Positions 2,910 to 40,002 of a DNA stretch of 64,000 bases are shown piece after piece (positions within the stretch are counted from its first letter, which is position 1; every line of letters begins with the position of its first letter). Below the pieces are notes generated by a model that was not told the DNA's origin, ran no database searches, and saw only the letters and a list, made by a program, of their open reading frames with translations. Made by a program: the position numbers and the translations under genes. The stretch is from Rhizobium freirei PRF 81 (GTDB taxonomy: Bacteria > Pseudomonadota > Alphaproteobacteria > Rhizobiales > Rhizobiaceae), in assembly GCF_000359745.1 (NCBI RefSeq), contig NZ_AQHN01000084.1:62001-126000 (forward strand). Direction: 5' to 3'.

Positions 2910-3860
2910 ATGAATCAGAACATATCGATCGCGACTGCGCCGGATGGCGGCATGTCCAGTGCTGCTCTTCGCGGACCGATGCCGCGGACGCCAGGCGAAC
3001 CGCAGCGCTCCCGCCACCTCTTGCTCTTGAGAATATTGACCTTCAGTCTGCGGGTGCGCTTGAAGCGTGCGTTTCTCTTTTGGTTTCGCTTTGCTGCCAA
3101 TCCGTTGCTGACGATCCGATGGTGGCATTTCCTCGCGACGTTTACGGCAACACGGGCATTTCCTGCTCCGCACGATGAATTGTTGCAGAAGCCGCTGTCG
3201 AAATTTCTCGTCTACGGCTTGAGCAGTTCCAAGCGGCTCGCACTTCTCATCGACCATTTTTCGATTGCCGAGCGGATCCTGTCCCGCGAAAGCATGATCG
3301 GCCTTTGGCGCGGCGAGTGGCTCGACATGGGCACTGTCCAGGGACGCAGCGAAACATATGCATGTCTTATCGCACTTGCCGATCGCAGCGGCGGACGCCA
3401 TGAGGGTGCTTTTGCCATCAAGCTCGTTCGGCTGCGCGACAAGGCCGTTCTTTGCACGGCGCGCTTCATGTTTGTACATCACGGGGCGGAAGGCTGCTAT
3501 ACATTCGTCGTTGGCAGCATGCAGGGCCTGCGCAATGCCAAGCAGCGCATGGTCGAGGTGACCCGCGACCTCTACGGCTTGCGTCCGAAGGAGGCGATGC
3601 TGGTCGTACTGCAAGGTCTGACGGTCGAGGGCCGTGCGCAGCATTTCCTGGCCATCTCGCAAGCCAGGCACCCGATCCACTATCGGCGCGGCAGCAAGCA
3701 ATCGATGATGATGTCGAATATCGATGCTTTCTGGGCGGAACGCTCCGGCGAACCGGAAAGCACGTTCGGCTTCCTTGTCCCGCATTCGAAAACCTACGGC
3801 GCTGACAAGCGCAGCCAGAGCAAGCTGTGGTTCTACAATGTTGGTGAGCTCTTCTATTGA
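2910..3860 (+). CDS. VirK/YbjX family protein (DUF535)
   Basis: The 316-residue protein matches the VirK/YbjX (DUF535) family by its overall layout and by motifs such as LWRGEWLDMGTVQGRSE, the central AFAIKLVRLRDKAVLCT region and VVGSMQG. Enterobacterial members are linked to envelope or virulence phenotypes and antimicrobial-peptide resistance; no enzyme activity is established. A basic, hydrophobic stretch at about residues 36-70 could associate with membrane. The start at 2910 has only a weak ribosome binding site, and an in-frame ATG at 2952 is an alternative. It is monocistronic and convergent with the next kinase gene. Confidence 0.8.
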   Translation: MNQNISIATAPDGGMSSAALRGPMPRTPGEPQRSRHLLLLRILTFSLRVRLKRAFLFWFRFAANPLLTIRWWHFLATFTATRAFPAPHDELLQKPLSKFLVYGLSSSKRLALLIDHFSIAERILSRESMIGLWRGEWLDMGTVQGRSETYACLIALADRSGGRHEGAFAIKLVRLRDKAVLCTARFMFVHHGAEGCYTFVVGSMQGLRNAKQRMVEVTRDLYGLRPKEAMLVVLQGLTVEGRAQHFLAISQARHPIHYRRGSKQSMMMSNIDAFWAERSGEPESTFGFLVPHSKTYGADKRSQSKLWFYNVGELFY

Positions 3861-3969: not shown

Positions 3970-3999
3970 GAAGACCGAGCGCGTGAGGTGCCGGTCTTC
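3970..3999 (-). terminator. Hairpin just past the kinase stop codon
   Basis: GAAGACCG at 3970-3977 pairs perfectly with CGGTCTTC at 3992-3999, loop 14 bases, and the outer base overlaps the kinase stop codon. The following minus-strand bases have only a short TT, so this is a weak terminator candidate for the regulator-kinase operon. Confidence 0.35.
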
Positions 4000-5171
4000 T
4001 AGGCGTTCCGATCCGTCAGATGGATTGCGACCATTGCCCCGCCTTCCGGCCGGTTTCCAAACTCGAGACGCCCGCCATGGGCAATGGCGATGGCCTGCAC
4101 GACGGAGAGCCCCAGTCCGGTGCCGCCGGTTGCACGCGAGCGGGAGGATTCGCCACGCCAGAAGGGATTGGTGTCGATCGCATCCATGTCCTGCGGAAAT
4201 CCGGGGCCGCGGTCGAGAATGCGGATGATGACGCCTCCATCCCGCAGCCGCTCCGTCTCGCATCGCAGCCAGCCGCCCTCTGCAGCGTAGCGACAGGCAT
4301 TCTGGAGGAGTGCCAGGACCGCCTGCCGGATCCTTGGCGAATCCGCCGAAATCCGGGCGGGCCGCAGATTGGTCTCGACCAGCAGCTTGCTGGCATCCAG
4401 CATCGGTTTGGCCGAGGCAAGGACTGTCTCGACGACATCGGAAACATCGATCCGCTGACGCTCGATGACGAGCTTTTGCCCGATGGCCAGAGAAAGGGTG
4501 CGCAGATCTTCGACGATACGCCCCAGTCCTTCGACCTGCAGCAGAAGATCCGATACTATCTTCCGGTCCATCGGAAAGACGCCGTCAAGCATGCTCTGCA
4601 GCGATCCCTGCAGGATCGTCAGCGGTGTCCGCAGTTCGTGCGCCACCGCCATGTTGTTGAAGCGTAATCTCTTTTCCATGGTTTCGAGGCTGGTCGCAAG
4701 CGCGTTGAAGGTCGTGACCAGGCTCGCGACCTCACGCGTGCTGCGATAGGGTTCGGCGACCCGAACCGAGAAGTCTCCGGATTTCAGGCCTTCGGCCGCC
4801 GAAGTGAGTTCTCCGAGAGGGCTGGCGAGCCGTCGCGCCAGATATATGCCGATCAGGGCGCAGACCAGGGCCGAAAGCAGGCCGCAGACCAGAACCGAAA
4901 GCTGAACCTTCAGATCCGTCGGTCCCGTCAGCGCATTGAGGTGCTCGAAAAGCAGCGTCAGAGACTCTCCGTCGGGAACCTTGCCTTCACTCAGCATCGT
5001 ATAGGCGGCCGAGGCTTTCGGCGGCAGCGTCTGGGTAATGCTTTCCTCCAGATAGGAGGCATACCAGCTGACCCCCATATATGTCAGGCCGACGCTCAGA
5101 AGCAGCATGATGATTGTGACGATGGCGGTCAGCGTGGCGAGGGAGACGCAGGGAAATCTGAACTTCTTCAT
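3999..5171 (-). CDS. Membrane sensor histidine kinase (HAMP-HisKA-HATPase)
   Basis: Sensor of a two-component pair. The 390 residues comprise TM1 at about 10-32, a short periplasmic sensor loop, TM2 at about 90-112, and HAMP to about 165. Then come the dimerisation/phosphoacceptor helix with AVAHELRTPLT (His178) and an ATPase domain with N-box LLQNACRYA, G1 DRGPGF and G2 GGTGLGLSV. All catalytic motifs look intact. The start overlaps the end of the response-regulator gene by 4 bp (ATGA), so the two are translationally coupled. The small periplasmic domain (about 55 residues) gives no clue to the signal. A divergent PAP2 phosphatase gene suggests an envelope-lipid role, which is inference. Confidence 0.93.
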   Translation of the reverse strand: MKKFRFPCVSLATLTAIVTIIMLLLSVGLTYMGVSWYASYLEESITQTLPPKASAAYTMLSEGKVPDGESLTLLFEHLNALTGPTDLKVQLSVLVCGLLSALVCALIGIYLARRLASPLGELTSAAEGLKSGDFSVRVAEPYRSTREVASLVTTFNALATSLETMEKRLRFNNMAVAHELRTPLTILQGSLQSMLDGVFPMDRKIVSDLLLQVEGLGRIVEDLRTLSLAIGQKLVIERQRIDVSDVVETVLASAKPMLDASKLLVETNLRPARISADSPRIRQAVLALLQNACRYAAEGGWLRCETERLRDGGVIIRILDRGPGFPQDMDAIDTNPFWRGESSRSRATGGTGLGLSVVQAIAIAHGGRLEFGNRPEGGAMVAIHLTDRNA

Positions 5172-5860
5172 CTCGGGTCCGAAAAGCGGTAGCCAATGCC
5201 GCGTACAGCGGGAAAGAAACCGTCCTGCCCCATATCCTCCAGCTTGCGCCGAAGGTTTGAGATGTGCGTGTCGACGGTGCGCACCAGGGCATCGCTTTCG
5301 GGCAGGCAGGCATCGAGGATGTCGGTGCGCGCGAAAGCTTGTGTCGGGTGTCGGATCATATAGGCAAGAATCCGGAATTCGCTGAGGGTCAGGGGCAGCG
5401 GAACGCGACGCCCGTCGCTATTGATGAAGGCGGTGTAGCTGCCGAAATCGACTTCCAGAGCGCCGAAACGGCGAACCGTTTCAGCACGGTCCCCCTGCGT
5501 CCGGCGCAAGACTGCGCGGACGCGTGCGACAACCTCCTGCGGGTTGAACGGCTTGACGACATAGTCATCGGCTCCGAGCCGCAGTCCACTCAAGCGGTCT
5601 ATGTCGTCGGCGACCGCGGTGACCATGATGATCGGCGTCGAGCCGGCCTGACGCAGACGGCCGAGCACCCCAAAGCCGTCGAGCTTCGGCAGGCGAACAT
5701 CCAGGAGCACGATATCCGGTTTCAGAAGCGCATGATGCTGGAGTGCGGTCTCGCCATCGCCGGCGCGCACGGTGCGAAAGCCGTCCCGCGTCAGATAGGC
5801 TTCCAATATCTGCGCGATGGCCGGTTCATCCTCCACGATGAGAACGAGACTGTTGTCCAC
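5168..5860 (-). CDS. OmpR-family response regulator
   Basis: Receiver plus winged-helix DNA-binding regulator of 230 residues. The receiver has acidic residues in LIVEDEP, phosphoacceptor Asp54 in VLLDVRLP, and the conserved Lys in DDYVVKPF. The C-terminus shows an OmpR/PhoB effector domain ending RTVDTHISNLRRKL and VRGIGYRF. I chose the GTG at 5860 because it starts just before LVLIVEDEP and gives the usual family length. The frame stays open upstream to 5998, but those 46 residues do not look like a receiver extension. AGGGG lies about 15 bases upstream of the GTG. It is first gene of an operon with the kinase and divergent from the PAP2 gene, a likely target. Confidence 0.92.
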   Translation of the reverse strand: MDNSLVLIVEDEPAIAQILEAYLTRDGFRTVRAGDGETALQHHALLKPDIVLLDVRLPKLDGFGVLGRLRQAGSTPIIMVTAVADDIDRLSGLRLGADDYVVKPFNPQEVVARVRAVLRRTQGDRAETVRRFGALEVDFGSYTAFINSDGRRVPLPLTLSEFRILAYMIRHPTQAFARTDILDACLPESDALVRTVDTHISNLRRKLEDMGQDGFFPAVRGIGYRFSDPR

Positions 5861-6060
5861 TCTAGTGCCTATGCCCCTGATTTTCCTCTCGGCCTTGCCG
5901 CCGTGGAGAAGCACTATTGCGGACAAAACCGGCTTCTGCAAATTCGAAACAGTCCTTCGACCGCCCAATGGCCAAGTCTGAACATGGCCTTCATGCAATC
6001 TTCGTCATTTCTTGACAATCGGAGGTCAGCTTGCCGCCGTCCAGCCTCAGGAGATTCGGC

Positions 6061-6828
6061 ATGTGGAAATTTGCATCGCGTTCTTGGAGTTCCGTCTCCG
6101 GCGTAACGCGTCTGCGTCAACCGGAAATGCAATCGAACACTGACGGGGGGCTGGCCGTTCTCGGGATGCTGATCGTCTGGACCAGTTTCATCTTCGTGGT
6201 CTTCCCCAGGCTCGATCTTGCCGTGGCGCGTTTGTTCTTCCAGGGACATGCGTTCTGGCTGGCAGAGAACCCTTTCCTGAAGGCGGTGAGGGATGTTACG
6301 CGCGGCGGACAGGTTTATCTCCTCTCCGGCATGGTGCTGTTGATTGCATTGCATGTCTTCCTGCCGAAGCGGTTCAGGTTCTGCGCTCCGCACAAGCCCC
6401 TATTCGTGCTTCTGAGTTTTGCGGCAGGCCCGCTTGCCATCGTGCAAACGCTGAAGGTCGTGATCGGACGCGTGCGCCCCCGCGAACTCGTCGAGTTCGG
6501 CGGCAATGCGGATTTCACCCCTGTATGGCAGTTTTCCACGGCATGCAGCAGCAACTGCTCTTTTCCTTCGGGCGAAACCGCGGTTGCCGCCGCGGCGCTT
6601 TCCCTGCTGGTGTTCGTCCCCGGGAGGTATAGATGGGGTGCTGCGGCTGTCATCACGCCATGCCTGATGTTGGTTGCGTTCAATCGCGTCGTTTTCGGCG
6701 CTCATTTCCTGTCCGACGTGATGCTGGGCTGGCTGCTGACGGTTTTTGCCATGGCGTGGATTTGGCGCTGGGTCGACCTGAATGCGAAGGTGATCGATCG
6801 GTTCTTTTCGCGCCTGATAGTCAAGTGA
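6061..6828 (+). CDS. PAP2-type membrane phosphatase with altered PSGH motif
   Basis: Integral membrane phosphatase of the PAP2/lipid-phosphatase family, 255 residues with about six hydrophobic segments. The three phosphatase motifs are present: K132-x6-RP (KVVIGRVRP), PSGE at 169-172, and NR-x5-H-x3-D (Arg209, His215, Asp219). The usual motif 2 is PSGH, so here Glu172 replaces the histidine normally thought to act as acid; such variants occur in alphaproteobacteria. Likely substrates are lipid phosphates such as phosphatidate, undecaprenyl pyrophosphate or lipid A. The ATG at 6061 has AGGAG 7 bases upstream. A TTG at 6031 with GGAGG 5 bases upstream is a credible longer start. Divergent from an OmpR regulator. 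Confidence 0.87.
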   Translation: MWKFASRSWSSVSGVTRLRQPEMQSNTDGGLAVLGMLIVWTSFIFVVFPRLDLAVARLFFQGHAFWLAENPFLKAVRDVTRGGQVYLLSGMVLLIALHVFLPKRFRFCAPHKPLFVLLSFAAGPLAIVQTLKVVIGRVRPRELVEFGGNADFTPVWQFSTACSSNCSFPSGETAVAAAALSLLVFVPGRYRWGAAAVITPCLMLVAFNRVVFGAHFLSDVMLGWLLTVFAMAWIWRWVDLNAKVIDRFFSRLIVK

Positions 6829-14633: not shown

Positions 14634-16148
14634 TTATTTCTTCGGGGTGACGTTCCAGAAGTGCGGCCAATAGGTCGGCGTGTAGCCGGTGACCGAGCCT
14701 GATATGCCCGACAGAGCGTTGAAGTTGCCGACCTTATAGAGGGGAGCATCGTCGTAGATGACCGTCTGGATGCCTGCCCAAGCCTTCTGCTTGGCGTCGT
14801 CGGTGGTCGCGTCCATATAGGTGGAAACGGCCTTGGCTTTTTGGTCTGAAACGTACCAGCCGGGATAGGTGTCGGTGATGGTGTTGATCGTCGTCGGGTC
14901 GCCGGGGAAGTTGGAGTGGGTGATGAAGACATCCCATTCCTTCGGATCGGCGCGGCGGGTCGTCAGCGTGGCCCAATCGACGACCTGCATGTCGACCTTG
15001 AAGCCGGCGGCCTCGAGATAGGCCTTGGCGACTTCGCCGATCTTGTAATGGAATTCGTACTGGCGGCTGGTCAGGAGGCGCAGCGGCGTGCCGTCATATC
15101 CGGCGTCCTTCAGCAGCTTTGCCGCCGTCTCGGGATCGCCTTCGCCATAGCGCGCCACGCCGGCCTCGGTGTGCCAGAACGACCCCTTGGGGAAGATGGA
15201 GCCGTCGACGCTGAAGAAGCGCTGGTCGTTGAAGGCGGCAAGCATCATGTCGGAAGAATTCAGCGCTGCCTGCACGGCCTGGCGCAGCGGCTTCTTCACC
15301 AGCAGGCCCTGCTTCATGTTCATGTTGAGCGATACCCAGCCGGTGTTCTCGAAGATGACGGGCTTGGCATTGCCGCTCTTTTCGATGCGCTCATAAGCGC
15401 TGACGGGGAGCGAATCTGCGAAATCGAATTGTCCGGAGATCAGCCCTTCGACGCGGGTATTGGCATCCGGGACCGGTACAAAGCGGATCTCCTTGGCGAC
15501 GGCTTCGCGCTTGCCGGCATAGTTGTTCGGTTCGCCATCAGGCGACTTGTAGCCGTCGAAACGCACGAGCTGCGTATACTGGTCCGGCTTGCGCTCTTTC
15601 AGCATGTAGGGGCCGGTGCCGATGAAGTCGGTAATCGTGTCGGCGACCTTGGCTGCCGGAAGGATGATCGAGGCTTGGGAGAGCGTCGCCAGCAGCGGCG
15701 CATAGCGCGACTTCAGCTTGAAGACCACGGCATGATCGCCATCGGCCGTCAGGCTGTCGACGATGGTGGCAACCTGCTTGCCCTTGGAATTGACGTTCAT
15801 CCAGCGCTTCAGCGAGGCGACGACGTCTTTGGAGCCGAAATCGCTGCCGTCATGAAACTTGACGCCTTCGCGCAGCGGAATGCGATAGGTGAGGCCGTCA
15901 GCGGAAATCGTCGGCATGGCGGCTGCCAGCAGCGGAACGGACTTCCATTGAGCATCATAGGTGTAAAGCGTCTCGAAAATATGCTGATCGACCGTCAGCA
16001 CAATATCGGTGGGCGTCTGCATGGCATCGAGGGTCGGCAATTCGCCGATGGTGGCGACGGTCAGGACTCCGTCCGATGTCTGGGCAATTGCCAGATTGCT
16101 GGTGCCTGCGAGCATGGCCAGCGTGAGCAGAACGAATGCGCTTTTCAT
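14634..16148 (-). CDS. Peptide-type ABC substrate-binding protein (family 5)
   Basis: Periplasmic receptor for the importer encoded downstream. It has a Sec signal peptide MKSAFVLLTLAMLAG with cleavage near AIAQ/T, then a SBP_bac_5 fold: TVATIGELPTLDAMQTP at the mature start, the family motif LREGVKFHDGSDFGSKDVV at about residues 85-105, and GTGPYMLKE. Length (about 504 residues) is normal for DppA/OppA-type receptors. Three ATG codons in a row occur at 16154-16146, and I take 16148 because AAGGGG lies 6 bases before it. The open frame extends to 16244 without a better start. The ligand could be a di/oligopeptide, glutathione or another compound. Confidence 0.92.
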   Translation of the reverse strand: MKSAFVLLTLAMLAGTSNLAIAQTSDGVLTVATIGELPTLDAMQTPTDIVLTVDQHIFETLYTYDAQWKSVPLLAAAMPTISADGLTYRIPLREGVKFHDGSDFGSKDVVASLKRWMNVNSKGKQVATIVDSLTADGDHAVVFKLKSRYAPLLATLSQASIILPAAKVADTITDFIGTGPYMLKERKPDQYTQLVRFDGYKSPDGEPNNYAGKREAVAKEIRFVPVPDANTRVEGLISGQFDFADSLPVSAYERIEKSGNAKPVIFENTGWVSLNMNMKQGLLVKKPLRQAVQAALNSSDMMLAAFNDQRFFSVDGSIFPKGSFWHTEAGVARYGEGDPETAAKLLKDAGYDGTPLRLLTSRQYEFHYKIGEVAKAYLEAAGFKVDMQVVDWATLTTRRADPKEWDVFITHSNFPGDPTTINTITDTYPGWYVSDQKAKAVSTYMDATTDDAKQKAWAGIQTVIYDDAPLYKVGNFNALSGISGSVTGYTPTYWPHFWNVTPKK

Positions 16149-16715
16149 CATCATCCCCTTTTTGTCAGCCGCCCTGTCAGGGCCGTCGCTTTTGTCAATC
16201 AGCATGCATGCAACCGGCTTTTGTCCGGTCGATGTCAGGTTCAAGGCATCGCGGTTCGCTCAAGCGCGGCCGCTGCTTGCATGGCACCGCGATCTTCCGC
16301 AGGCTCATAGTGATCGAATATGGACAGCCACCAAGCCAAGTTCATCTTAAGAAGGCCTGCCGCTGCGCTGTTCACCCATTGACATCTTGTCATGTAATTT
16401 TTTTTCTTAATAACGACATGAAATTCGTCATTGTCAACGTGTTTTTGTATATTCGTGCGTCTGTATGTAAATAATTTTCGCAATTCGACAGATTTGTCCG
16501 CGGATTTTCACGGCGCAATTGTCCGGTCATGGAGGCGTTGAGGCGCAGAGCAGGTTCTGGATATGGGCCGTCCGGGTTGCGATCCACCGGCGAGCCGCGT
16601 TTGCAATCATCTCGAAACCGTAAGGTTCCGGCAAAGTGGGCGGCAGGAATGGGCGATAGGGTAGCATCGGCTCCAGTGAGCCTAGGAACTCAGATCCATC
16701 TGAAAGGAGTGAAGC
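16149..16715. other. 567-bp divergent regulatory region, A+T-rich
   Basis: It separates the peptide ABC operon (minus) from the DUF1344 gene (plus). The central part (about 16380-16490) is conspicuously A+T-rich and holds a good minus-strand promoter. One minus-strand open frame (16390-16587) has no family features, and I regard it as noncoding. No riboswitch structure is recognised. Confidence 0.5.
16408..16437 (-). promoter_or_regulatory. Sigma70-type promoter for the peptide ABC operon
   Basis: On the minus strand there is TTGACA (complement at 16432-16437), an 18-base spacer, then TTATTA (complement at 16408-16413), about 260 bp upstream of the binding-protein start. The -35 is a perfect consensus. 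The -10 is 4 of 6. Confidence 0.45.
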
Positions 16716-16976
16716 ATGTTCGGAAAACTGGTTGCAATCGGGATCGTCTCCGTCGTCGGATTGGCAGCGGGCGCGGCTTTGGCCCGCGACGAGGTGGGAA
16801 CGATCACCAATATCGATGCAAAGGCGGATCAGATTACCCTTTCCTCGGGCACAGTCATCAATCTGCCCGAAAGCATCGAGGTCGAATCCTTAAAGGTCGG
16901 CGAGCACGTCTCGGTAAAATACAGCGTGCAGAAATCCGGCCACGCCCTGGCTTCGCAAGTCAAACCGATGAAATAG
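16716..16976 (+). CDS. Small exported DUF1344 protein
   Basis: An 86-residue protein of the DUF1344 family, common in rhizobia. It has a signal-peptide-like N-terminus (VAIGIVSVVGLAAGAALA, cleavage after ALA near residue 23), then a compact all-beta domain with VGTITNIDAKADQITLSSG and VGEHVSVKYSV. It is probably periplasmic. The start at 16716 has a strong AAAGGAG about 9 bases upstream. Its function is unknown. It is convergent with the sensor kinase gene, whose own partner genes lie beyond. It may belong to the same envelope-stress theme, but nothing in the sequence proves this. Confidence 0.8.
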   Translation: MFGKLVAIGIVSVVGLAAGAALARDEVGTITNIDAKADQITLSSGTVINLPESIEVESLKVGEHVSVKYSVQKSGHALASQVKPMK

Positions 16977-16996
16977 GTTGAAACGACGACCGAGTT

Positions 16997-18355
16997 TCAG
17001 ATCTTTGGAAAGGACAGGCAGACCTGGAGCCCAGGCCTGCCATCCTCAAGCGCGATCGGGGCCGAGTGCAGATCCGCTATTGCCTTGACAAGGCTCAACC
17101 CCAATCCGCTGCCGGGCGTTGTGCGGCTCTTGTCCAGACGGTAGAGCCGCCTGAATACCAGCTCGCGCTCCTCCATCGGGATGCCCGGCCCGTTGTCCGA
17201 GACGCAGGCAAGATAGGCTTGCTCCGTTGCCGCAAGCGTCATCAGGATGCTGGTCCCGGCCGGGCAATGGGTGATCGCATTCTCGATGAGATTGACGAAG
17301 AGCTGGGTTAGCAGCTCGCGGTCGCCATTGACGGTAGATGGCGCCAATACCTGAAGGCTTAGTTCCAGCTTTTGCGCATTGTCCTCGGCGACATGTTCAT
17401 AGATTTCCGCCACCGAGGACATGACGTCGCGCAGGTCCAAACGCTTGAATCGGGCCTTGCCGGCGCCTGCCTCGATTTGCGATATCCGCAGAAGTGCGCC
17501 GAATGTCGCGTCGATCCTGTCGCATTCCTCGCGGGCGTCGAGAAGCAGGCCCTCGACGGTCTCGGTCTGCCCCTGCCGCTGCAAAGCTTGCTCGATCGTC
17601 ATGCGCAGGCGATTGAGCGGCGTTTTCAGATCATGTGCGATATCGGCACTGACCTGGCGCATGCCCTCCACAAGGCTGGAGAGCCGGCCGAGCGCATGGT
17701 TCATATGGGTGGAAACGACATCGATATCATCTCCATTTCCATGGATCGGAATCCGGCATGTAAGATTGCCGCCCGAAATCTCTATCATGGTGTATTCGAT
17801 GGATTCCAGCCGTCTCGTCGCCCGTCTGGCAAGCAGCGCGCCTCCGACAATCACGACAGCCACGATGAGGCCGGAAGCCCACAGGAAGCTTGCGAGGACG
17901 ATATGTTCGATCGCGTCGGTCTCACGGTAACTTTGTCCGACGAAGAGAGAATTGCCGCCGACATTGCCAGCCATAATCCTTATCGGATCACTGCCGCCCA
18001 ATCCGAGATTGGCCGCCGGCACCGTCGAAAGTCCAGGCTGGATTTGCGACACCCTGATATTGCCCGCAAGCTTCTCTCCTCTCGCGTTCAACAGCAGGAA
18101 TACCTGATCCTCGGCGTTCTTGAGCGCGGAATATGTATTGACGGCGGCGATCAGGTCTTCGAGGTCATCGGCCGAATACGTCGATGCGACGACGGAATAA
18201 GTGTCGCCTACCGACCGATCGATGGCGCGCGCAAGTTCCCGCTCCATCAGCCCATAGGCGATCGCGCCCGCCACGAGAAGGGCGAGGATGAAGAAAAGCC
18301 CGAAGGATAAGGCCAGCCTGAAAGGCGTGCTGCGCAGCAGTCTAGCGCGGCGCAT
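16997..18355 (-). CDS. Membrane sensor histidine kinase (second two-component system)
   Basis: A 452-residue kinase: TM1 at about 12-36, a 115-residue periplasmic sensor, TM2 at about 153-177, HAMP, then the phosphoacceptor VSADIAHDLKTPLNRL (His241) and an ATPase with N-box LIENAITHC, G1 SDNGPGI and G2 GSGLGLSLV. Motifs are intact. The ATG at 18355 overlaps the regulator gene by 14 bp; the longer open frame to 18493 lies inside the regulator gene and is unlikely to be translated. The layout resembles metal-responsive CusS-type kinases, but the signal cannot be read from sequence. Confidence 0.92.
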   Translation of the reverse strand: MRRARLLRSTPFRLALSFGLFFILALLVAGAIAYGLMERELARAIDRSVGDTYSVVASTYSADDLEDLIAAVNTYSALKNAEDQVFLLLNARGEKLAGNIRVSQIQPGLSTVPAANLGLGGSDPIRIMAGNVGGNSLFVGQSYRETDAIEHIVLASFLWASGLIVAVVIVGGALLARRATRRLESIEYTMIEISGGNLTCRIPIHGNGDDIDVVSTHMNHALGRLSSLVEGMRQVSADIAHDLKTPLNRLRMTIEQALQRQGQTETVEGLLLDAREECDRIDATFGALLRISQIEAGAGKARFKRLDLRDVMSSVAEIYEHVAEDNAQKLELSLQVLAPSTVNGDRELLTQLFVNLIENAITHCPAGTSILMTLAATEQAYLACVSDNGPGIPMEERELVFRRLYRLDKSRTTPGSGLGLSLVKAIADLHSAPIALEDGRPGLQVCLSFPKI

Positions 18356-19019
18356 GCATGCAATATCCCGTATTTCGGACCGTATGGACCAGCTGGACGT
18401 CAAACGGCTTGTCGATCTTCGTTCGCAGCCGGCTGATATGCGTTTCCACAACGCTCGTCTTGGGATCGAAATGGAAATCCCAGACCCGCTCAAGCAGCAT
18501 GGTTCGCGTCAGCACCCGGCCCTCGGCTCGCATCAGAACCTCCAAGAGCGTGAATTCCCGGGGCTGAAGATCAATCGGCGCGCCGCCCCGGCTGACTTGC
18601 CGCTTGATGACATCGAGCTCAAGGTCCGCGATCCGCAGCACCGTCTTGCGATCCTGTACGGGCGGCCGTCGCGCCAGCGCGTTCAGCCGCGCGAGCAATT
18701 CGGAAAAGGCAAAGGGCTTGGTCAGGTAGTCGTCGCCGCCTGCCTCGAGCCCTTCGACCCTGTCGTCGACGCCGCTCATGGAGGTCAGGAATATGGCCGG
18801 CGTCTCGACCTTGGCGGCCCTGGCGGCCTTGACCAGCGAAAGGCCATCCAGCCCGGGTATCATGCGATCGACGATGAGGACGTCGTAGTGTTCGCGCGTC
18901 GCCTGGAACAGCGCATCCGTGCCATCGCGGATCACATCGCAGACGTGCCCGGCTTCGCTCAGGCCGCGGGAGATGTAATCGGCAGTCTTCCGGTCGTCCT
19001 CGACGACAAGTATTTTCAT
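18342..19019 (-). CDS. OmpR-family response regulator (second two-component system)
   Basis: A 225-residue regulator with receiver start MKILVVEDD, phosphoacceptor Asp51 in VLIVDRMIPG, conserved Lys in DDYLTKPF, and an OmpR-type winged helix ending TSVVETHISRLRTKI and RNTGYCM. It is promoter-proximal in the regulator-kinase operon. Its start lies 248 bp from the divergent small exported protein/DUF347 operon, which is therefore its most likely target. A CTTAC-N6-GTAAG dyad in that interval is a candidate binding site. Confidence 0.92.
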   Translation of the reverse strand: MKILVVEDDRKTADYISRGLSEAGHVCDVIRDGTDALFQATREHYDVLIVDRMIPGLDGLSLVKAARAAKVETPAIFLTSMSGVDDRVEGLEAGGDDYLTKPFAFSELLARLNALARRPPVQDRKTVLRIADLELDVIKRQVSRGGAPIDLQPREFTLLEVLMRAEGRVLTRTMLLERVWDFHFDPKTSVVETHISRLRTKIDKPFDVQLVHTVRNTGYCMHAPR

Positions 19020-19094
19020 GCTTCGGCTGCGCTCCGTTGACCGTGATACGCGCGGAAGTATGGCTCCAGAAGGTGTCGGCAGCCTGAACGGGCG

Positions 19095-19110
19095 CTTACA
19101 AATCCGTAAG
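19095..19110. promoter_or_regulatory. Inverted repeat in divergent interval, candidate regulator site
   Basis: CTTAC (19095-19099), six bases AAATCC, then GTAAG (19106-19110). A second CTTAC half-site is at 19139-19143. Both lie between the divergent response-regulator gene and the small exported protein gene. Short, so only suggestive. Confidence 0.35.
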
Positions 19111-19267
19111 GTCGCGCCCGTCGGGAGGGCGCGCGTTTCTTACGAAACAGTATGCTCTCGGCAAAGACCATGTATAGGCGGCTCCGTAGAAGGGACGGCG
19201 CCGACGCGCAGTCAATGCGGTCGGCGGATCAACCTGAGACCACAGGTCACAAACCGGAGCCATCTTC

Positions 19268-19537
19268 ATGAACATGTCCAAAGCCGCTCAACGTATCACT
19301 CTCACCATCCTCGCGGGGCTCGTGATAGTGCCCGCCGCCGCCCATGCCGCGGCACCTCGTCCATGCGAAGACATGCTCAAGGAAATGCGCGCTGCAAAAT
19401 CAACCGCAAAACTCAGCGCGGACGATAAAGCCAAGGTCGATGCGCTCGAGGCGAAGGCAGTCGAACGCTGCAATGCCGATGACGACAGGCGGGCCGACGG
19501 CTTTCTGGACGATGCGATGAAGCTGATGAAGAAGTGA
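19268..19537 (+). CDS. Small exported helical protein, first gene of DUF347 operon
   Basis: An 89-residue protein. The signal peptide (TLTILAGLVIVPAAAHA, cleavage after AHA near residue 28) is followed by a charged, Ala/Lys/Asp-rich helical domain. Its two cysteines (in RPCEDML and VERCNADD) could pair in the periplasm. I do not recognise a family. GGAG lies about 8 bases upstream of the ATG, and a second ATG 6 bp inside is possible. The DUF347 membrane protein gene starts 25 bp downstream, so they form an operon, divergent from a two-component system. It could be a periplasmic partner or ligand buffer for that membrane protein, which is speculation. Confidence 0.75.
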   Translation: MNMSKAAQRITLTILAGLVIVPAAAHAAAPRPCEDMLKEMRAAKSTAKLSADDKAKVDALEAKAVERCNADDDRRADGFLDDAMKLMKK

Positions 19538-19562
19538 GACCGGTCAACGAGGCAGAAGCAAC

Positions 19563-20342
19563 ATGACCCAGCAATTTCTAGCAAGTCCGGAGCCGCTCTT
19601 GAACAGGGTTCCGCGCGTCACGATCGATTTCTGGCTGATCAAGCTGTTGGCGGTAACGATGGGCGAAACCGCGGCGGATTATCTCGCCGTCAACATGGGG
19701 CTTGGCCTTACGCTGACGTCGCTCGCCATGGCCGTAGTGCTTGTCGGTGTGCTTGCGATCCAGTTTCTGCAGGAGCGCTACGTTCCTTGGGCTTATTGGA
19801 TCGCCGTCGTCCTGATCAGCGTTGTCGGAACATTGCTGACCGATAATCTCTCGGACAATCTTGGCGTTCCGCTCGCTGTCTCGACGGTCGGGTTCAGCAT
19901 TGCGCTGGGCCTCACCTTCTTCGTCTGGTGGAGAATGGAAGGGACTTTGTCTATCCACTCGATTTACTCGGCCAGGCGCGAGCAGTTCTATTGGTTGGCC
20001 ATTCTCTTCACTTTCGCGCTCGGGACGGCGGTTGGCGATCTGATCGCTGAACAATTCGGCTTCGGCTATATAGCGACGGGTTTGATCTTTGCCGGCGTGA
20101 TTGCTGCTGTCGCGATCGCTTATTTCGGCTTCAGGCTCAACGCCATCCTGGCATTCTGGGTGGCCTATATCTTCACGCGGCCACTCGGAGCCTCGTTCGG
20201 GGATTATCTTTCGCAGCCGGTGGAATACGGAGGTCTCGGTTTCGGCACCATCTATACGAGTTGTCTGTTCCTCATAGCCATTGCGGCAACCGTCATCTAC
20301 ATGACGGTAAACCATGAGCCCGAAGTGTCGGTCGAGGTGTAG
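19563..20342 (+). CDS. DUF347 (COG4705) multispanning membrane protein with four repeats
   Basis: A 259-residue integral membrane protein with about eight TM segments, and a fourfold internal repeat each carrying G-x4-D: GETAAD (34-39), GTLLTD (89-94), GTAVGD (154-159) and GASFGD (209-214). This is the DUF347 repeat pattern. The acidic residues buried in membrane segments suggest transport of a cation or metal, but no function is established for the family to my knowledge. It lies in an operon with the small exported protein and is divergent from an OmpR-type two-component system. A perfect 13-bp hairpin follows the stop codon. Confidence 0.85.
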   Translation: MTQQFLASPEPLLNRVPRVTIDFWLIKLLAVTMGETAADYLAVNMGLGLTLTSLAMAVVLVGVLAIQFLQERYVPWAYWIAVVLISVVGTLLTDNLSDNLGVPLAVSTVGFSIALGLTFFVWWRMEGTLSIHSIYSARREQFYWLAILFTFALGTAVGDLIAEQFGFGYIATGLIFAGVIAAVAIAYFGFRLNAILAFWVAYIFTRPLGASFGDYLSQPVEYGGLGFGTIYTSCLFLIAIAATVIYMTVNHEPEVSVEV

Positions 20343-20351
20343 AGCTACTCT

Positions 20352-20384
20352 CCGTGAGATCGGGCAACCAACCCGATCTCACGG
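20352..20384. terminator. Perfect 13-bp hairpin after DUF347 gene
   Basis: CCGTGAGATCGGG (20352-20364) pairs perfectly with CCCGATCTCACGG (20372-20384), 7-base loop. It lies 9 bp past the stop. It has no T tract, so it may be a transcript end-protector or Rho-assisted terminator serving both this operon and the facing M20 remnant. Confidence 0.55.
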
Positions 20385-20396
20385 CTCGGCAGATGC

Positions 20397-20916
20397 TCAA
20401 TCATATCTCGCCAAAGCTGCGAGGATGCGCACCCAGGATCGGATCCCCTTATGAAAGCTCGAAAGATCGTATTTTTCATTCGGGCTGTGGACGCGATTGT
20501 CGAAGCGGGCAAAGCCGACCAATAGGGCATCCCAGCCAAGGCGACGCTTGAATTCGCCGATGATCGGGATAGAGCCGCCGGTTCCCGCCAGCGCCGCCTC
20601 GCGCTGCCACTCGGTAGTCAAGGCTTCCAATGTCTTACGCAGGAACGGGCTTGTCGAGCGGCATAATCGTTGCCGGCGAGAGGCCATGATCCTTGAAGCT
20701 GACCGAGCAGTCGGGCGTGCCGTCATAAAAGCCGGCAATGGCGACGACGCCATCCGGCGTGCGCAGACTGGAAACGATGTCGGCAAGGACCTGCAACAGA
20801 TTGCGGGCTGCATTGCCGAACATGCCGGAATGCAGATCGCGATTGGTGCAGCTCAACTCGATCTCCTCACCGACCATGCCGCGCAGCATGGTCGTGACGG
20901 CTATCAGAATCAATGC
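20397..20916 (-). pseudogene. M20-family peptidase remnant (truncated, internally deleted, frameshifted)
   Basis: Two minus-strand frames together spell the C-terminal half of an M20 metallopeptidase. Frame one (about 20916-20635) has AVTTMLRGMVGEE, RDLHSGMFGNAARN and HGLSPATIMPLDKP. Frame two (about 20633-20397) has ALTTEWQREAALAGTGGSIP and HSPNEKYDLSSFHKGIRSW. The N-terminal catalytic half is absent. A large piece between GFYDG and SVSFKDHG is missing, and a frameshift separates DKP from the next segment. The 5' break coincides with the end of the CDP-diacylglycerol pyrophosphatase gene, suggesting a deletion joined the two. Confidence 0.85.
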
Positions 20917-21629
20917 ATGATCGTGCAGCTGTGGTCCTGCACGTCTTCGCCGCCCATGCTGGGCCGGGCGACGTCCGTCAGCACGATGAAGCCAGGGCCA
21001 TCGGCAAAGTTCGCGCCGACGACAACGAGGTTGTGGTCGCCCATTTCCTTGGCAGGGTCCTTCAGCGTCTTGGCGAGTGCCAGGAACGGATTGAAATCGC
21101 CCAATATCTCCCCCTTGACGCGCAGTGCGGTGAACTGATGGCCTGCAACGGTATCGGGTAGGGGCGCCCAATCCGTGCCGATACGATCGGCATCCGCCTT
21201 CAGCGCGGCCTGGGCCTCGGCGCTGAGGCAGTCGACGTGGATGTGCAGCTGATTCTGCGAGCGGGCCTGCTGGGCGTTCACGGCAAGGCTCAGACCATCC
21301 CGCGGGACGGCGCGCGGCAGGCGGGCATCGACATCGCCATGTTCGGACCAAGCATCGGCGAAGAAATTGTGTGTGGCAGGGTCGAGGAGGGCGGCGCTTT
21401 CAATCCCTGTGATCTTGTCGGTGGGGATCAGAAGAACCTGTGCGACACCCCTCAGGTCCTTGAGGATTGCATAGTGCTCGGCGGTGTTGACCGAGAGGCA
21501 CGGCGCGGTCTGCACGACGCATTTGTCATGTACGATCTTCCACAGTACGTCGGAATCGGCAAAGGCCGGAGCAAAGAGGAGTGGAAGAAAGGAGGCGGTA
21601 AGGGCCGTGACGCGGCGCGAAATTGTCAT
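20910..21629 (-). CDS. cdh: CDP-diacylglycerol pyrophosphatase
   Basis: Hydrolyses CDP-diacylglycerol to CMP and phosphatidate. The 239-residue protein has a signal peptide/membrane anchor (VTALTASFLPLLFAPAFA, cleavage near AFA), the family stretch DVLWKIVHDKCV, LLIPTDKITGIES, and the HIT-like catalytic motif SQNQLHIHVDC (His129, His131). The C-terminus DVQDHSC matches the normal family end, so the gene appears intact although the M20 remnant abuts it. The start at 21629 was chosen for its signal peptide; the frame is open to 21842 but without coding character there. AAGGGA lies upstream. Confidence 0.9.
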   Translation of the reverse strand: MTISRRVTALTASFLPLLFAPAFADSDVLWKIVHDKCVVQTAPCLSVNTAEHYAILKDLRGVAQVLLIPTDKITGIESAALLDPATHNFFADAWSEHGDVDARLPRAVPRDGLSLAVNAQQARSQNQLHIHVDCLSAEAQAALKADADRIGTDWAPLPDTVAGHQFTALRVKGEILGDFNPFLALAKTLKDPAKEMGDHNLVVVGANFADGPGFIVLTDVARPSMGGEDVQDHSCTIMH

Positions 21630-36576: not shown

Positions 36577-36618
36577 GAGCCTATGCAATTCGAACATTCT
36601 TTGCGCAAAGGGGTGACA

Positions 36619-37293
36619 TTGCGAATTCTGCTGCTTGAGGACGAGCCGGAAATGGCTTCCGCACTTTGTAGTGCGTTGCGCACGCGCGATGCTCTTGTGG
36701 ACCATATGACAACGCTTGCCGATGCCGAAGAGGCGGCAATGATCGTCGTCTACGATGTCATCCTGCTCGACCGGCAGGTTCCCGATGGTGACGGCCTCTC
36801 GCTCATTCCCAAGCTTCGATCGAATGGCGTGAGCGCACCCGTCATCATGTTGACCGCCCGCGGTGAACTCGACGACCGCATAGACGGCCTTGACTCCGGG
36901 GCCGATGATTATCTCGTCAAGCCTTTTGCCGTCGAGGAGCTTCTCGCGCGCCTGCGCGCCGTCATGCGCCGGCCGGGCGATGTCCGTGTCGACGTGGTCA
37001 ATTTCGGCCGGGTATCCTACGATTTCGACGGCCGCGAAGCGCTAATCGACGGCTGCCGGCTCGATTTGCCGCGTCGGGAACTGCTGGTATTCGAAACGCT
37101 CGCCCGCCGGCTCGGCCGCACCGTTCAGCGGCATATGCTCGAAGAGGCCGTTTACGGCTTCGATGACGATATTCAATCGAATACGCTCGACGCCCATATC
37201 TCCCGCCTGCGCCGGAAGCTCATTTCCGTCGATGCCGGCCTCGAAATCCATCCGGTGCGCGGCATCGGCTACCTCATGAAGCCGACCTCATGA
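36619..37293 (+). CDS. OmpR-family response regulator (third two-component system)
   Basis: A 224-residue regulator: MRILLLEDEPEM at the start, phosphoacceptor Asp51 in VILLDRQVPDGDG, conserved Lys in DDYLVKPF, and an OmpR-type effector domain ending SNTLDAHISRLRRKL and VRGIGYLM. I chose the TTG at 36619 because AAAGGGG lies 5 bases before it and it gives the normal family start and length. ATG 36583 and GTG 36613 in the same frame are alternatives. The stop overlaps the kinase ATG (4 bp). A 16-bp direct-repeat box upstream is duplicated before the methyltransferase gene, the predicted second target. Confidence 0.91.
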   Translation: MRILLLEDEPEMASALCSALRTRDALVDHMTTLADAEEAAMIVVYDVILLDRQVPDGDGLSLIPKLRSNGVSAPVIMLTARGELDDRIDGLDSGADDYLVKPFAVEELLARLRAVMRRPGDVRVDVVNFGRVSYDFDGREALIDGCRLDLPRRELLVFETLARRLGRTVQRHMLEEAVYGFDDDIQSNTLDAHISRLRRKLISVDAGLEIHPVRGIGYLMKPTS

Positions 37294-38645
37294 GTGCAAG
37301 CCAGCCTTCGTTGCGTTGGCGCCTGGTGCGGCAACTTGCCTCCCTGCAGGCGGTTTTTCTGAGCATATTGGCGCTCCTGATCGTTGCGGCCCTCTGGACG
37401 ACTGGAAGCGTCATCTCGCTTCAGCCGGAAGACGAAACCATCGACGCGATCGCGCAATCGATCGAGCGAGACAAAGATGGCGCACTTGCCGTCAAGGTAA
37501 CGCCTATGCTCGTGGCGCGGCGCGCCGAGCTGCCGGGTCTCTGGTTTGTGGTAAGGGACCGCAGCGGGGCGACGATTGCCGAGGGTGCCGTGCCGCAGGC
37601 CTATGCCAACATCGGCGGCACGCTCGACGGCATCGGCCAGGGTCGCTTCGGCGGCAATCTTGGCGGCAATGCCGTGCCTGCCGCGCGGCTTCGATGGGTT
37701 GGATCCCCGATCGGCGAGGTGCAGGTTCTGACCGGGATTGACGGTGGCGTTTCGCCGTCCCGGGTCATGGCCGCTACCAGCCTCATTTTTTTCAGTACCC
37801 TCTTGCCGCTGCTCGCCGTAACGGCGGTCGCGACCATGGTTGCGGCGCCGATGGTGGTTCGCCGTGCCTTTTCCTCGCTCGATTCCGCCGTCGCCCGCGC
37901 CGGGCAGATCGACATCGATCGACAGGGGACGCGGCTGCCCGTCGACAATGTCCCGCAGGAGATTTTGCCGCTCGTCGAAGCCGTCAATGACGCGCTCAGC
38001 CGGCTGGATGAAGGTCACGAGCGCCAGAAGCGCCTGTTTGCTCACCTTGCGCATGAGTGGCGTACGCCCGTCGCAATCCTGCAAGCCCGCCTTGACGGCC
38101 TTCCTTCCGGGCCGCTGAAGGAGAGGATCTTCGAGGACACCGTGCGGCTTGCGACGCTGGCGGAGCAGTTCCTCGATCTGCAGCGTCTCAACCATCGTTT
38201 CGAGCCCGCTCCGGTCAATCTCGTCGATGTCGCGCGCCACGTCGTTTCCGAATTGGCGCCGCTTGCCATCGCCGCCAATTACGAGCCCTGTTTCCTGGCG
38301 GATGAGGATGCGGTCGAAATTTTCGGCGATCGCGTCGCACTTGAGCGCGCCGTTACCAATCTGGTGCAGAACGCGATCCAGCATGGCGGGCGGCAAGGCA
38401 GCATTACGGTGCATGTCGGCCGGGCAACGGGCATCACGGTGACGGACGAGGGCAACGGCATTCCGGCCGAGCAGCGGGGGCGCGTCTTCGAGCCATTTCA
38501 CCGGCTGTCCGGCCACGGCAAGGGGTTCGGTCTTGGTCTCAACCTCGTCCAGGAAATTGCCCGGCTTCATGGCGGACAGGTTCAGGTGCTGGAGGGGCCG
38601 ACTGGCGGCGCGGCCTTCAGATTGAGTTTCCCTTTGGCGGGATAG
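37290..38645 (+). CDS. Membrane sensor histidine kinase (third two-component system)
   Basis: A 451-residue kinase with TM1 at about 18-38, a 115-residue periplasmic domain rich in Gly near 108-127, TM2 at about 160-185, HAMP, and phosphoacceptor AHLAHEWRTPVAI (His255; Trp replaces the usual Leu after HE). The ATPase domain has N-box NLVQNAIQHG, G1 DEGNGIP and G2 KGFGLGLNLV. All catalytic motifs are present. The ATG overlaps the regulator stop, so expression is coupled. It probably senses an envelope condition, inferred from the methyltransferase and DedA genes that follow. Confidence 0.92.
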   Translation: MSASQPSLRWRLVRQLASLQAVFLSILALLIVAALWTTGSVISLQPEDETIDAIAQSIERDKDGALAVKVTPMLVARRAELPGLWFVVRDRSGATIAEGAVPQAYANIGGTLDGIGQGRFGGNLGGNAVPAARLRWVGSPIGEVQVLTGIDGGVSPSRVMAATSLIFFSTLLPLLAVTAVATMVAAPMVVRRAFSSLDSAVARAGQIDIDRQGTRLPVDNVPQEILPLVEAVNDALSRLDEGHERQKRLFAHLAHEWRTPVAILQARLDGLPSGPLKERIFEDTVRLATLAEQFLDLQRLNHRFEPAPVNLVDVARHVVSELAPLAIAANYEPCFLADEDAVEIFGDRVALERAVTNLVQNAIQHGGRQGSITVHVGRATGITVTDEGNGIPAEQRGRVFEPFHRLSGHGKGFGLGLNLVQEIARLHGGQVQVLEGPTGGAAFRLSFPLAG

Positions 38646-38666
38646 AGCGACGTTCTCTCTGAGGAT

Positions 38667-38682
38667 GCAATGTTCCCGCAAT
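38667..38682 (+). promoter_or_regulatory. OmpR-type direct-repeat box, copy 2 (before methyltransferase gene)
   Basis: Identical 16 bp, GCAATGTTCCCGCAAT, to the box at 36561-36576. It lies in the short gap after the kinase gene and 65-80 bp upstream of the methyltransferase ATG at 38747. This supports a second promoter controlled by the same regulator. Confidence 0.6.
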
Positions 38683-38746
38683 CGGCGCGACGGTAGGAGT
38701 GGCGAGTGAAATAGCCGAAACTCCAGGACCGCACGGACGGGAACTC

Positions 38747-39337
38747 ATGTCCAATACGTCATTATTCATTCGAACTCTTCTTTCCAATCCGCGGATGGTG
38801 GGCGCAATAGCACCGTCCGGCGCGATGCTGGCGGATCTCATCACGAGCGAAGTGGACCCCGCCGCAGGGCCTGTTCTCGAACTTGGGCCGGGAACGGGCG
38901 TTTTCACCGAAGCGCTGCTTGCTCGCGGCGTTCGCGAAAGCGACCTGACGCTGGTGGAGTTCAGTACCGACTTCGCGGATATGCTGCAACGGCGCTTTCC
39001 CCATGCGCGCGTCCTATGTGCCAATGCCGCAAGGCTCGACATGCATATCTCGCCCGAAGATCTCCCATTCGGCTGCGCGATCAGCGGCCTGCCGCTCTTG
39101 AACATGTCGCCAAGAGTGGTGGTTGCGATTCTCGACGGCGCCTTGTCGCGGCTGCGCGAAGGGGGCGCGCTCTATCAGTTCACTTATGGGCTTCGCTGTC
39201 CGGTGCCGCATCGGCTGCTCGATCGTTTCGGCTTCAAGGCGACGCTGCATGGGCGCGTGCTGCGCAACTTTCCGCCCGCCCGGGTCTACAAGATCGTCAA
39301 GCGGAAGCCGCCGAAGCGGCTGGTGGCCAAGGCATGA
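38747..39337 (+). CDS. PmtA-like phospholipid N-methyltransferase family protein
   Basis: A 196-residue class I methyltransferase. SAM motif VLELGPGTGVFTEALL is near residues 43-58, and AISGLPLLNM corresponds to the substrate-loop region. The early segment FIRTLLSNPRMVGAIAPSG is typical of proteins annotated phosphatidylethanolamine N-methyltransferase (PmtA) in alphaproteobacteria and of related rRNA-dimethylase-like enzymes. It may methylate phosphatidylethanolamine or another lipid; this assignment is moderate. An in-frame GTG at 38699 exists, but AGGAG abuts it, so ATG 38747 is preferred. It overlaps the DedA gene by 4 bp and follows a copy of the two-component regulator box. Confidence 0.78.
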   Translation: MSNTSLFIRTLLSNPRMVGAIAPSGAMLADLITSEVDPAAGPVLELGPGTGVFTEALLARGVRESDLTLVEFSTDFADMLQRRFPHARVLCANAARLDMHISPEDLPFGCAISGLPLLNMSPRVVVAILDGALSRLREGGALYQFTYGLRCPVPHRLLDRFGFKATLHGRVLRNFPPARVYKIVKRKPPKRLVAKA

Positions 39338-40002
39338 TCGATCAGTCCGATTTCCTCGACTTGTTGCCTGCCCTGGCTGCATGGGGGCTGTTCGGTTTTC
39401 TCCTCTGTGCCGCGGTGGAAAAGCTTATACCTATCATACCCTCGGGCGGCATGCTCATTGCGCTTGGGATGTTCGGCGTGTCGGATCCGAGCGATCTGCC
39501 ATGGGTGGTCGCCATTACGGCCACGGGATCAACGGCAGGTTCGCTGTTTTGGTACGTGTTGGGCCGATGGTTCGGCGCTGAGCGCGGTGACCTTCTTGCC
39601 GTGCGGCTCGGCCGGCGTCTCGGCATCGGCGGCGAATGGTATTGGCGACTGAAAGACGGCTACCGTCATCGCGGGTTTGCCCTGACGTTCGTCAGCCAAA
39701 TCATACCCTTTGCAAGGGCCTATATCGCCTTTCCCGCAGGGGTGCTTGCCGTACCTGCAAAAGGCTTTGCCACCGCGACCTTCTTCGGGGCGGTTCTCTG
39801 GAATACGCCATATCTGATATCGGGCTACATGCTGCGCAAGCACATGTTCGATCGGGATATAGCGCTGCCTGCGGCCTTTGCCGTCATCGTACTGGCTTAT
39901 CCTCTATTGTTCACGGTGTTCCGACTCCGCCGGCCAAGCCGCTATGCGGCTCGGTCGGCAGTGACGATCCGATGCGCTACACGGTCAGCACGGCGTAGAT
40001 GA
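39334..40002 (+). CDS. DedA/SNARE-associated family membrane protein
   Basis: A 222-residue integral membrane protein of the DedA family. IPIIPSGGMLIALGMFG is near the N-terminus, then GSTAGSLFWYVLGRWFGAE, the conserved basic motif FVSQIIPFARAYIAFPAGVL (F-x-R-x2-P region), and ATFFGAVLWNTPYLISGYM. DedA proteins are implicated in lipid-carrier scrambling, proton-motive force and membrane homeostasis. Translationally coupled (ATGA) to the PmtA-like gene, it supports a membrane-lipid remodelling unit under the upstream two-component system. Its 3' end overlaps the convergent methyltransferase gene by 26 bp. Confidence 0.9.
   Translation: MIDQSDFLDLLPALAAWGLFGFLLCAAVEKLIPIIPSGGMLIALGMFGVSDPSDLPWVVAITATGSTAGSLFWYVLGRWFGAERGDLLAVRLGRRLGIGGEWYWRLKDGYRHRGFALTFVSQIIPFARAYIAFPAGVLAVPAKGFATATFFGAVLWNTPYLISGYMLRKHMFDRDIALPAAFAVIVLAYPLLFTVFRLRRPSRYAARSAVTIRCATRSARRR

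Follow-up and report, generated by a model that had tools for sequence, protein, structure and literature searches.

The DUF347 locus of Rhizobium freirei PRF 81 described here, at positions 16997 to 20342 of a 64,000-nucleotide stretch of contig NZ_AQHN01000084.1 (hereafter, the window), has its closest described relatives in the mmf genes of the transposon Tn6048. These encode a PepSY protein, an undecaprenyl pyrophosphate (UPP) phosphatase, a DUF347 membrane protein, a secreted protein, a second DUF347 protein, a response regulator, and a sensor kinase, and they are strongly induced by Zn and Pb in Cupriavidus metallidurans CH34 (PMC2864759, PMC12029693). They are also carried by Variovorax plasmids (PMC4914505); carriers include C. 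metallidurans and the plasmids pMOL98, pHB44, and pBS64, and pBS64 and a Delftia plasmid both show the gene order. MmfC has been named in print as an MFS-type permease, and a Frankia survey proposed DUF347 as a “new potential metal transporter” of six segments (PMC4531530). The same paper relates that Pb induces UppP-DUF347 operons in a Bacillus and that, in a diatom, no divalent-metal-specific gene is induced more than that for DUF347; its accessible sections describe neither a partner nor an operator of DUF347. No tested function is given for DUF347 in the accessible parts of the DUF347, Tn6048, and mmf literature that we found. Three further papers on Tn6048 (PMC8299993, PMC6210171, PMC13192273) contain nothing on function in the portions available, and the gene labels in the available text of a Mesorhizobium Zn/Cd transcriptome (PMC3668242) do not let the DUF347 gene be told.

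We consider the R. freirei locus to be a mobile, dedicated operon of the mmf kind that responds to cation stress at the cell envelope, in which DUF347 would be a transporter or channel for cations, with eight helices and four Asp residues facing the periplasm, and we put the probability of this reading at roughly 45%. The 259-residue DUF347 protein (19563..20342, + strand) is encoded 25 bp downstream of a gene for an 89-residue exported protein (19268..19537, +). The start of the latter is separated by 248 bp from that of a divergent gene for a response regulator of the OmpR/CopR class (18342..19019, −), identified with Pfam and subfamily profiles, and the regulator open reading frame (ORF) shares 14 bp with that of a sensor histidine kinase containing HAMP, HisKA, and HATPase_c domains (16997..18355, −). 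The first three ORFs are as described in an earlier prediction made from the sequence alone (the original prediction), and all of them, together with the kinase, were retained by a codon-usage gene caller. The divergent arrangement of a two-component system and the other two genes that it reported also stands, although the kinase falls outside the interval that it covered. An Rfam search over 16000-21000 gave nothing at gathering scores. The closest named locus is that of Rhizobium miluonense, whose DUF347 protein is 92% identical.

For comparison, 79 loci were used, kept from the best 80 among the scan matches listed; nearly all are from Alphaproteobacteria and many are closely related to one another, so that they cannot count as independent samples. 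The controls were 40 stretches from contigs of same-genus genomes. Genes were called by codon usage after training on the RefSeq genes of six plasmid loci, and the output was checked by eye against two annotated loci, one of which was also in the training set; this procedure replaced longest-ORF calling, which overlooked many DUF347 genes in GC-rich loci.

The likeness to mmf is considerable. The window DUF347 protein is identical to MmfC1 of pBS64 in 126 of 261 aligned columns (48%), the exported protein is of the same family as MmfD, a two-component system is adjacent, and the window locus, like mmf, is probably mobile. There are also differences. The window has one DUF347 gene and mmf two; its exported protein consists of the C-domain of the family, whereas MmfD has the N-domain; and its operon is without genes for MmfA (PepSY) or MmfB (UPP phosphatase). 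A custom PepSY profile found no match among the called genes of the window, and the only gene matching the PAP2 profile there (6127-6828) lies 13 kb away. The window regulator is divergent rather than co-directional and belongs to another branch, with 35% identity to MmfR. The kind of system is thus the one known as mmf, but the variant, with a C-domain partner, a CopR-branch regulator, and a defined operator, is not described in the accessible DUF347, Tn6048, and mmf literature.

The DUF347 protein is a clear member of PF03988/COG4705, matching the Pfam model with an E-value of 5.8e-58 (193.4 bits against a gathering score of 28.2) in four stretches. The original prediction had noted four repeats, each with a G-x4-D motif, and this is borne out. 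The repeats, comprising residues 20-74 (19620..19784, +), 75-127 (19785..19943, +), 137-191 (19971..20135, +), and 194-250 (20142..20312, +), align on a common [FY]W...G-x4-D-x-[LI] pattern, with the motifs GETAAD, GTLLTD, GTAVGD, and GASFGD at residues 34-39, 89-94, 154-159, and 209-214, respectively. In an alignment of 57 sequences chosen from the window and the comparison loci, all four motifs are intact in every homologue, and E35, E140, and R206 are invariant alongside the four Gly and four Asp residues. AlphaFold2, supplied with this alignment, predicts eight helices (residues 21-44, 48-70, 75-99, 104-126, 137-164, 169-190, 194-217, and 229-250), rather than the six segments stated in the available part of the Frankia paper, with a mean predicted local distance difference test score (pLDDT) of 92.9 and a predicted template modeling score of 0.89. 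Each G-x4-D motif is placed towards the end of an odd-numbered helix. Across the homologue alignment, the three internal loops on the N-terminal side contain on average 2.86 Lys plus Arg residues per protein, compared with 0.49 on the opposite side, so that by the positive-inside rule the motifs would face the periplasm. The structure prediction and the charge bias together support a topology of four hairpins inserted in the same direction, with the four invariant Asp residues predicted to lie at about one depth near the periplasmic side. Independent support comes from a Priestia DUF347 protein (L046), in which a hydrophobic stretch after helix 8, which we read as a ninth helix, leads into the N-domain of the exported protein; because elsewhere that domain comes after a signal-like start, this arrangement fits a cytoplasmic end after helix 8.

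A search of the PDB by sequence with a DUF347 profile gave nothing at E ≤ 10, and Foldseek of the model against the PDB gave no matches at E ≤ 0.001. As to the MFS fold that the published permease name implies, VIA-align placed 32 of 1000 chains at Z ≥ 5 and none at 8; pieces of MFS proteins reached at most Z 6.7, for SotB over 130 residues, a score below the trusted level.

The original prediction left the 89-residue exported protein unrecognized, and it remains so in Pfam, where no family matches it at E ≤ 1. It begins with a signal-peptide-like sequence and carries the C-domain signature CED...ERCNADDDxRAD, with two conserved Cys residues. Its family is built from this C-domain and an N-domain (LGDLS...RITDFE.AWD...W..ID), either of which can occupy the slot before DUF347. 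Adjacent partner genes, 61 in all, were found across 60 of the 79 loci; by motif, 36 have only the C-domain, like that of the window, 8 only the N-domain, 11 chain both, and 6 are unclear. All but one of the 61 lie upstream of DUF347 on the same strand, and 10 overlap the DUF347 start by a few bases. Together with the 25-bp gap in the window, this suggests that the two genes are cotranscribed, as the original prediction had held. An alignment of 31 partner rows (one of which, L111, is a wrong-strand read containing no partner) served for the wider comparisons. With it, MmfD of pBS64 matches the N-domain (hhalign E 5.6e-21), as does the C-terminal tail of the Priestia DUF347 protein (E 8.8e-12), which is consequently a natural fusion of the two. 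In a panel of 61 genomes, comprising that of PRF 81 and 60 relatives, the partner was found in 21, namely all 20 with DUF347 (PRF 81 included) and 1 of 41 without it, where the match (in genome G018) is weak at 5.7e-10. Comparison of sequences thus supports the view that the small exported protein is a true and nearly obligatory partner of DUF347. Some candidate relatives were set aside as chance: five PDB sequence matches to the partner, the best with E 0.095, and Pfam matches over the 31 rows, the best with E 0.0013 and each family appearing in few members. A structure predicted from the single sequence without an alignment had a pLDDT of 45.3 and was not used.

Regulation of the operon by a dedicated two-component system is well supported by sequence. 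A regulator lies within 7 kb of DUF347 in 73 of 79 loci and a kinase in 66, compared with 8 of the 40 controls in each case, and in 60 loci a regulator at least 55% identical to that of the window lies within 5 kb, either downstream and co-directional (33) or upstream and divergent (27). The proteins had been called CusSR-like, which holds only loosely. The best-scoring subfamilies are indeed those of heavy-metal systems, CzcR/SilR/CopR (TIGR01387) for the regulator and CzcS/SilS/CopS (TIGR01386) for the kinase, but both scores fall below the cut-offs, at 255.7 bits for the regulator (cut-off 279.2) and 178 bits for the kinase (cut-off 292.55). The conserved residues of the extracytoplasmic segment of the kinase (residues 21-189) include the acidic D46, D64, and D67 in an alignment of 56 kinases.

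A dyad had also been predicted between the divergent units, and it is real. The perfect dyad CTTACAAATCCGTAAG at 19095..19110 is accompanied by an imperfect copy, CTTACGAAACAGTATG, at 19139..19154 (+), both being operator boxes predicted by pattern search; a repeat finder run on the intergenic region does not list them, the 5-base arms of the dyad being below its length limits. Generalized as TTAC-N6-GTAW after the intergenic regions had been inspected, the pattern has three matches in the window, all at the two box sites, the perfect dyad being matched on each strand; shuffled sequence would be expected to give 0.13. Of the 77 loci with enough sequence, 61 have it in the 300 bp before the DUF347 operon, compared with 48 of 1063 other gene upstream regions in these loci and 8 of 735 gene upstream regions of the control stretches, and 63 of 80 boxes sit 90-175 bp ahead of the first start codon. 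Loci having a regulator of at least 55% identity contain it in 59 of 64 cases and those lacking one in 2 of 13, an association that kinship inflates. The strict form CTTACNAANNNGTAW has two matches in the 7.08-Mb genome, both at this promoter, and it is their placement rather than their number that matters. The box resembles the sites of CzcR (GAAACn6GTAAT) and CopR (CTGACAn5GTAAT) (PMC11195947) and that of UzcR (CATTAC-N6-TTAA), for which the available text reports 57 binding regions (PMC8963506), compared with the single promoter that carries the strict box here. These comparisons tie the dyad to a conserved operator, which is likely to be that of the adjacent regulator, and would imply that the regulator binds there and induces the operon.

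A regulon confined in this way might suggest that DUF347 and its partner do not transport at all and that the two-component system controls mainly its own accessory, which would be a membrane stress sensor, a kinase-tuning protein, or a membrane stabilizer. We regard this as unlikely. The invariant polar residues are repeated in four helices of a protein built like a transporter, the DUF347 proteins of mmf are paired with a different two-component system, and 6 of the 79 loci have no regulator match within 7 kb.

More weight must be given to a lipid substrate. DedA and DUF368 proteins, which like DUF347 are inner-membrane proteins in an envelope-lipid setting, are reported to be flippases of the lipid carrier undecaprenyl phosphate (C55-P) in the literature available, and DUF347 might similarly move this carrier or a phospholipid across the inner membrane, with the operon as a defense of the envelope when cationic peptides, agents like bacitracin, or metals with affinity for anionic lipids threaten it. 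We do not propose that DUF347 belongs to either family, and a Pfam scan gave no link to them. The neighborhood of DUF347 is rich in enzymes of envelope lipids, and this suggests that the system operates under envelope stress. Counted within 7 kb, in 985 kb surrounding DUF347 against 800 kb of control and for families selected for being frequent near DUF347, PAP2-type genes are found in 25 of 79 loci (1 of 40 controls), DedA/VTT domains in 14 (1 of 40; nine are DedA-PAP2 fusions and five stand alone), and MprF in 5 (1 of 40); the PAP2 and DedA-PAP2 profiles partly match the same genes, so that their counts are not additive. EptA, DgkA, and UppP are found in 3, 2, and 2 loci, respectively, and FtsX permeases, DSP-type phosphatases, and PepSY proteins in 10, 10, and 15, all with none in the controls. 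Annotated plasmids combine envelope-lipid genes: Agrobacterium vaccinii has EptA, DgkA, and PAP2, Thioclava has MprF with a DedA-PAP2 fusion, and Azospirillum has DedA with PAP2. mmfB, annotated as an undecaprenyl-diphosphatase, adjoins mmfC1, and on an Enterobacter kobei plasmid (L129, 3501-6741) mcr-10.1 is followed by a DUF347 gene, about 0.2 kb ahead of which there is one box-like site, TTACCGGTCCGTAA. In Pfam annotation of 140 of 225 further neighbor groups, general families led among the 25 commonest of 175, the part listed, so that metal exporters may be present among the rest.

The operator and the published phenotypes speak on both sides of this question. Among transcription units in 90 loci (the 79 plus 11 plasmid loci), the box precedes the first gene in 3 of 6 cases for MprF (two of the three, L119 and L120, being near-identical in that region), 7 of 14 for an FtsX-ABC row, and 7 of 17 for DUF1344, against 16 of 654 other first genes, and in other species boxes also precede PepSY genes. 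It is, however, mostly missing before first genes for PAP2 (2 of 17), EptA (1 of 4), DedA (0 of 4), UppP (0 of 2), and DgkA (0 of 2). Plasmid pHB44, with mmf, raises the minimal inhibitory concentration of bacitracin to 300 μg/ml from 40 μg/ml in the cured strain, but pMBUI8, which has only mmfA and mmfB, also confers resistance, and pBS64, with the whole set, confers none in its host, according to the available part of the report (PMC4914505). The invariant charged residues of the DUF347 helices are mostly acidic, which would be odd for a site that binds a phosphate lipid, and the presence of DUF347 in eukaryotic algae, as far as the accessible text of the algal papers goes (PMC9756366, PMC6249206), speaks against an undecaprenyl carrier. 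The lipid-enzyme neighbors make a lipid substrate a serious rival; in our estimation it is possible without being probable.

The neighborhood also contains metal genes, such as mbfA and chrB in a Bradyrhizobium plasmid island, ter genes in Enterobacter, and a multicopper oxidase and a cation transporter in Sphingobium; some loci, one in Cronobacter among them, have neither kind of neighbor. Of the 79 loci, 13 have a gene for an OFeT_1-like membrane protein within 7 kb, whereas none of the 40 controls does. This might favor the capture of scarce metals, iron or vanadium, as proposed for pHB44, a strain carrying which grew better at low Fe, with an effect of V also reported. The benefit was nevertheless observed with the plasmid as a whole rather than with mmf genes by themselves, in the available text (PMC4914505), mmf is induced by Zn and Pb, and the box precedes none of 12 OFeT_1-like first genes. 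Metal uptake of this kind is the least probable of the explanations considered.

This brings us back to the relief of cation stress. Metal induction in the relatives, the repeated acidic motif, and the presence of the family in algae tilt the balance towards a cation as substrate, and the envelope stress that is relieved most likely comes from metal ions or other cationic agents of a similar kind. The OFeT_1-like neighbors and the heavy-metal subfamilies that score best for regulator and kinase also favor this reading. Phosphorylated regulator would bind the TTAC-N6-GTAW boxes in the gap between the divergent genes and thereby switch on DUF347 and its exported partner; few other genes of this genome are likely to be under its control. 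The four invariant Asp residues may mark the opening of a channel or exporter for cations, at which the partner could dock to gate DUF347 or to capture the ion; in relatives, DUF347 would work beside enzymes that trim or mask envelope phosphates. The cation and lipid readings in fact fit one theme, the defense of anionic envelope groups against cations. The signal, the transport, and the substrate are what we infer for the DUF347 system. Of the original proposal of a sensed transport system for an ion, the tie to the regulator, the operator, the partner, and the transporter-like build are upheld by sequence, and an ion is a candidate substrate. The published relatives and the lipid-enzyme neighbors had escaped that proposal.

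Several observations weigh against this reading. Within the accessible text of PMC12029693, the function of mmf is called unknown, and growth in Cd, Co, and Zn was the same for a strain with mmf and a strain without it. Heavy-metal sensor kinases conserve metal-ligand His, Cys, and Met residues in the sensor segment. No His, Cys, or Met is conserved in at least 70% of the 56 kinases in the extracytoplasmic segment, so that direct metal sensing of the CusS/CzcS type is not supported, a difference from CopRS, CusRS, and CzcRS that adds to the low subfamily scores. The box is absent from both mmf loci examined; the reversed control of the strict box gives five genome matches; and the genome-wide search used the strict box only, so that a wider regulon is possible. 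No adjacent partner was called in 19 of 79 loci, one of which (L115) does have the N-domain motif upstream, and lipid enzymes such as PAP2 are at least as common around DUF347.

A bolder and quite doubtful proposal is that DUF347/MmfC founds a new class of single-chain, pseudo-tetrameric (four times two helices) cation channels or exporters, with a periplasmic ring of four Asp residues. An exported subunit consisting of the N-domain, the C-domain, or both would be dedicated to it, and plasmids and transposons would have spread the set, which would act like a valve that relieves cationic stress on the envelope under a single-promoter two-component switch. The question reaches beyond Rhizobium, since DUF347 spans several bacterial phyla and algae, and its genes are carried by a transposon that metals induce and by plasmids on which resistance genes lie nearby. 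A precise operator, an apparent single-promoter regulon, and a near-obligatory partner make the question of what DUF347 moves a testable one, and if DUF347 ties metal stress to cationic-peptide resistance, this would help to explain why the two traits travel together.

Among the other genes of the locus, that for a DUF1344 exported protein (16716..16976, +) adjoins the kinase gene and is probably an associate of the system: among the 79 loci, 10 have a DUF1344 gene no more than 7 kb from DUF347, and the control stretches have none. It recurs beside the second DUF347 copy of this genome (contig C22; L174, 11203-19761), in a row comprising another two-component system, an accessory protein, two ABC-ATPase-like ORFs, an FtsX-type permease, DUF1344, an N-domain partner, and DUF347. 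In 21 of the 79 loci, but in none of the 40 controls, there is a PEMT-like methyltransferase gene within 7 kb, which is often transcribed away from the DUF347 unit; the box lies upstream of 18 of 21 such first genes and is usually common to the DUF347 unit, and one of them (L052, 8767-9396) is weakly similar, below the cut-off, to the Leptospira lipid A phosphate methyltransferase LmtA.

Elsewhere in the window, a second two-component system (within 3999-6828; best NCBIfam matches AdeR/AdeS, below cut-off) is divergent from the PAP2 protein mentioned above, which is nearest to the lipid A 4'-phosphatase LpxF, again below cut-off; a DUF535 gene lies at 3054-3860, and the TTACN6GTAW box is absent from the 3999-6828 region. 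In the interval 36583-40002, roughly 0.7 kb separates a third two-component system from a DedA gene (39334-40002), on custom profile matches only. Just past DUF347, short ORFs at 20397-20913 without Pfam matches look like gene remnants, and they are followed by a gene for CDP-diacylglycerol pyrophosphatase (20910-21629, −; CDH, PF02611, E 4.8e-72).

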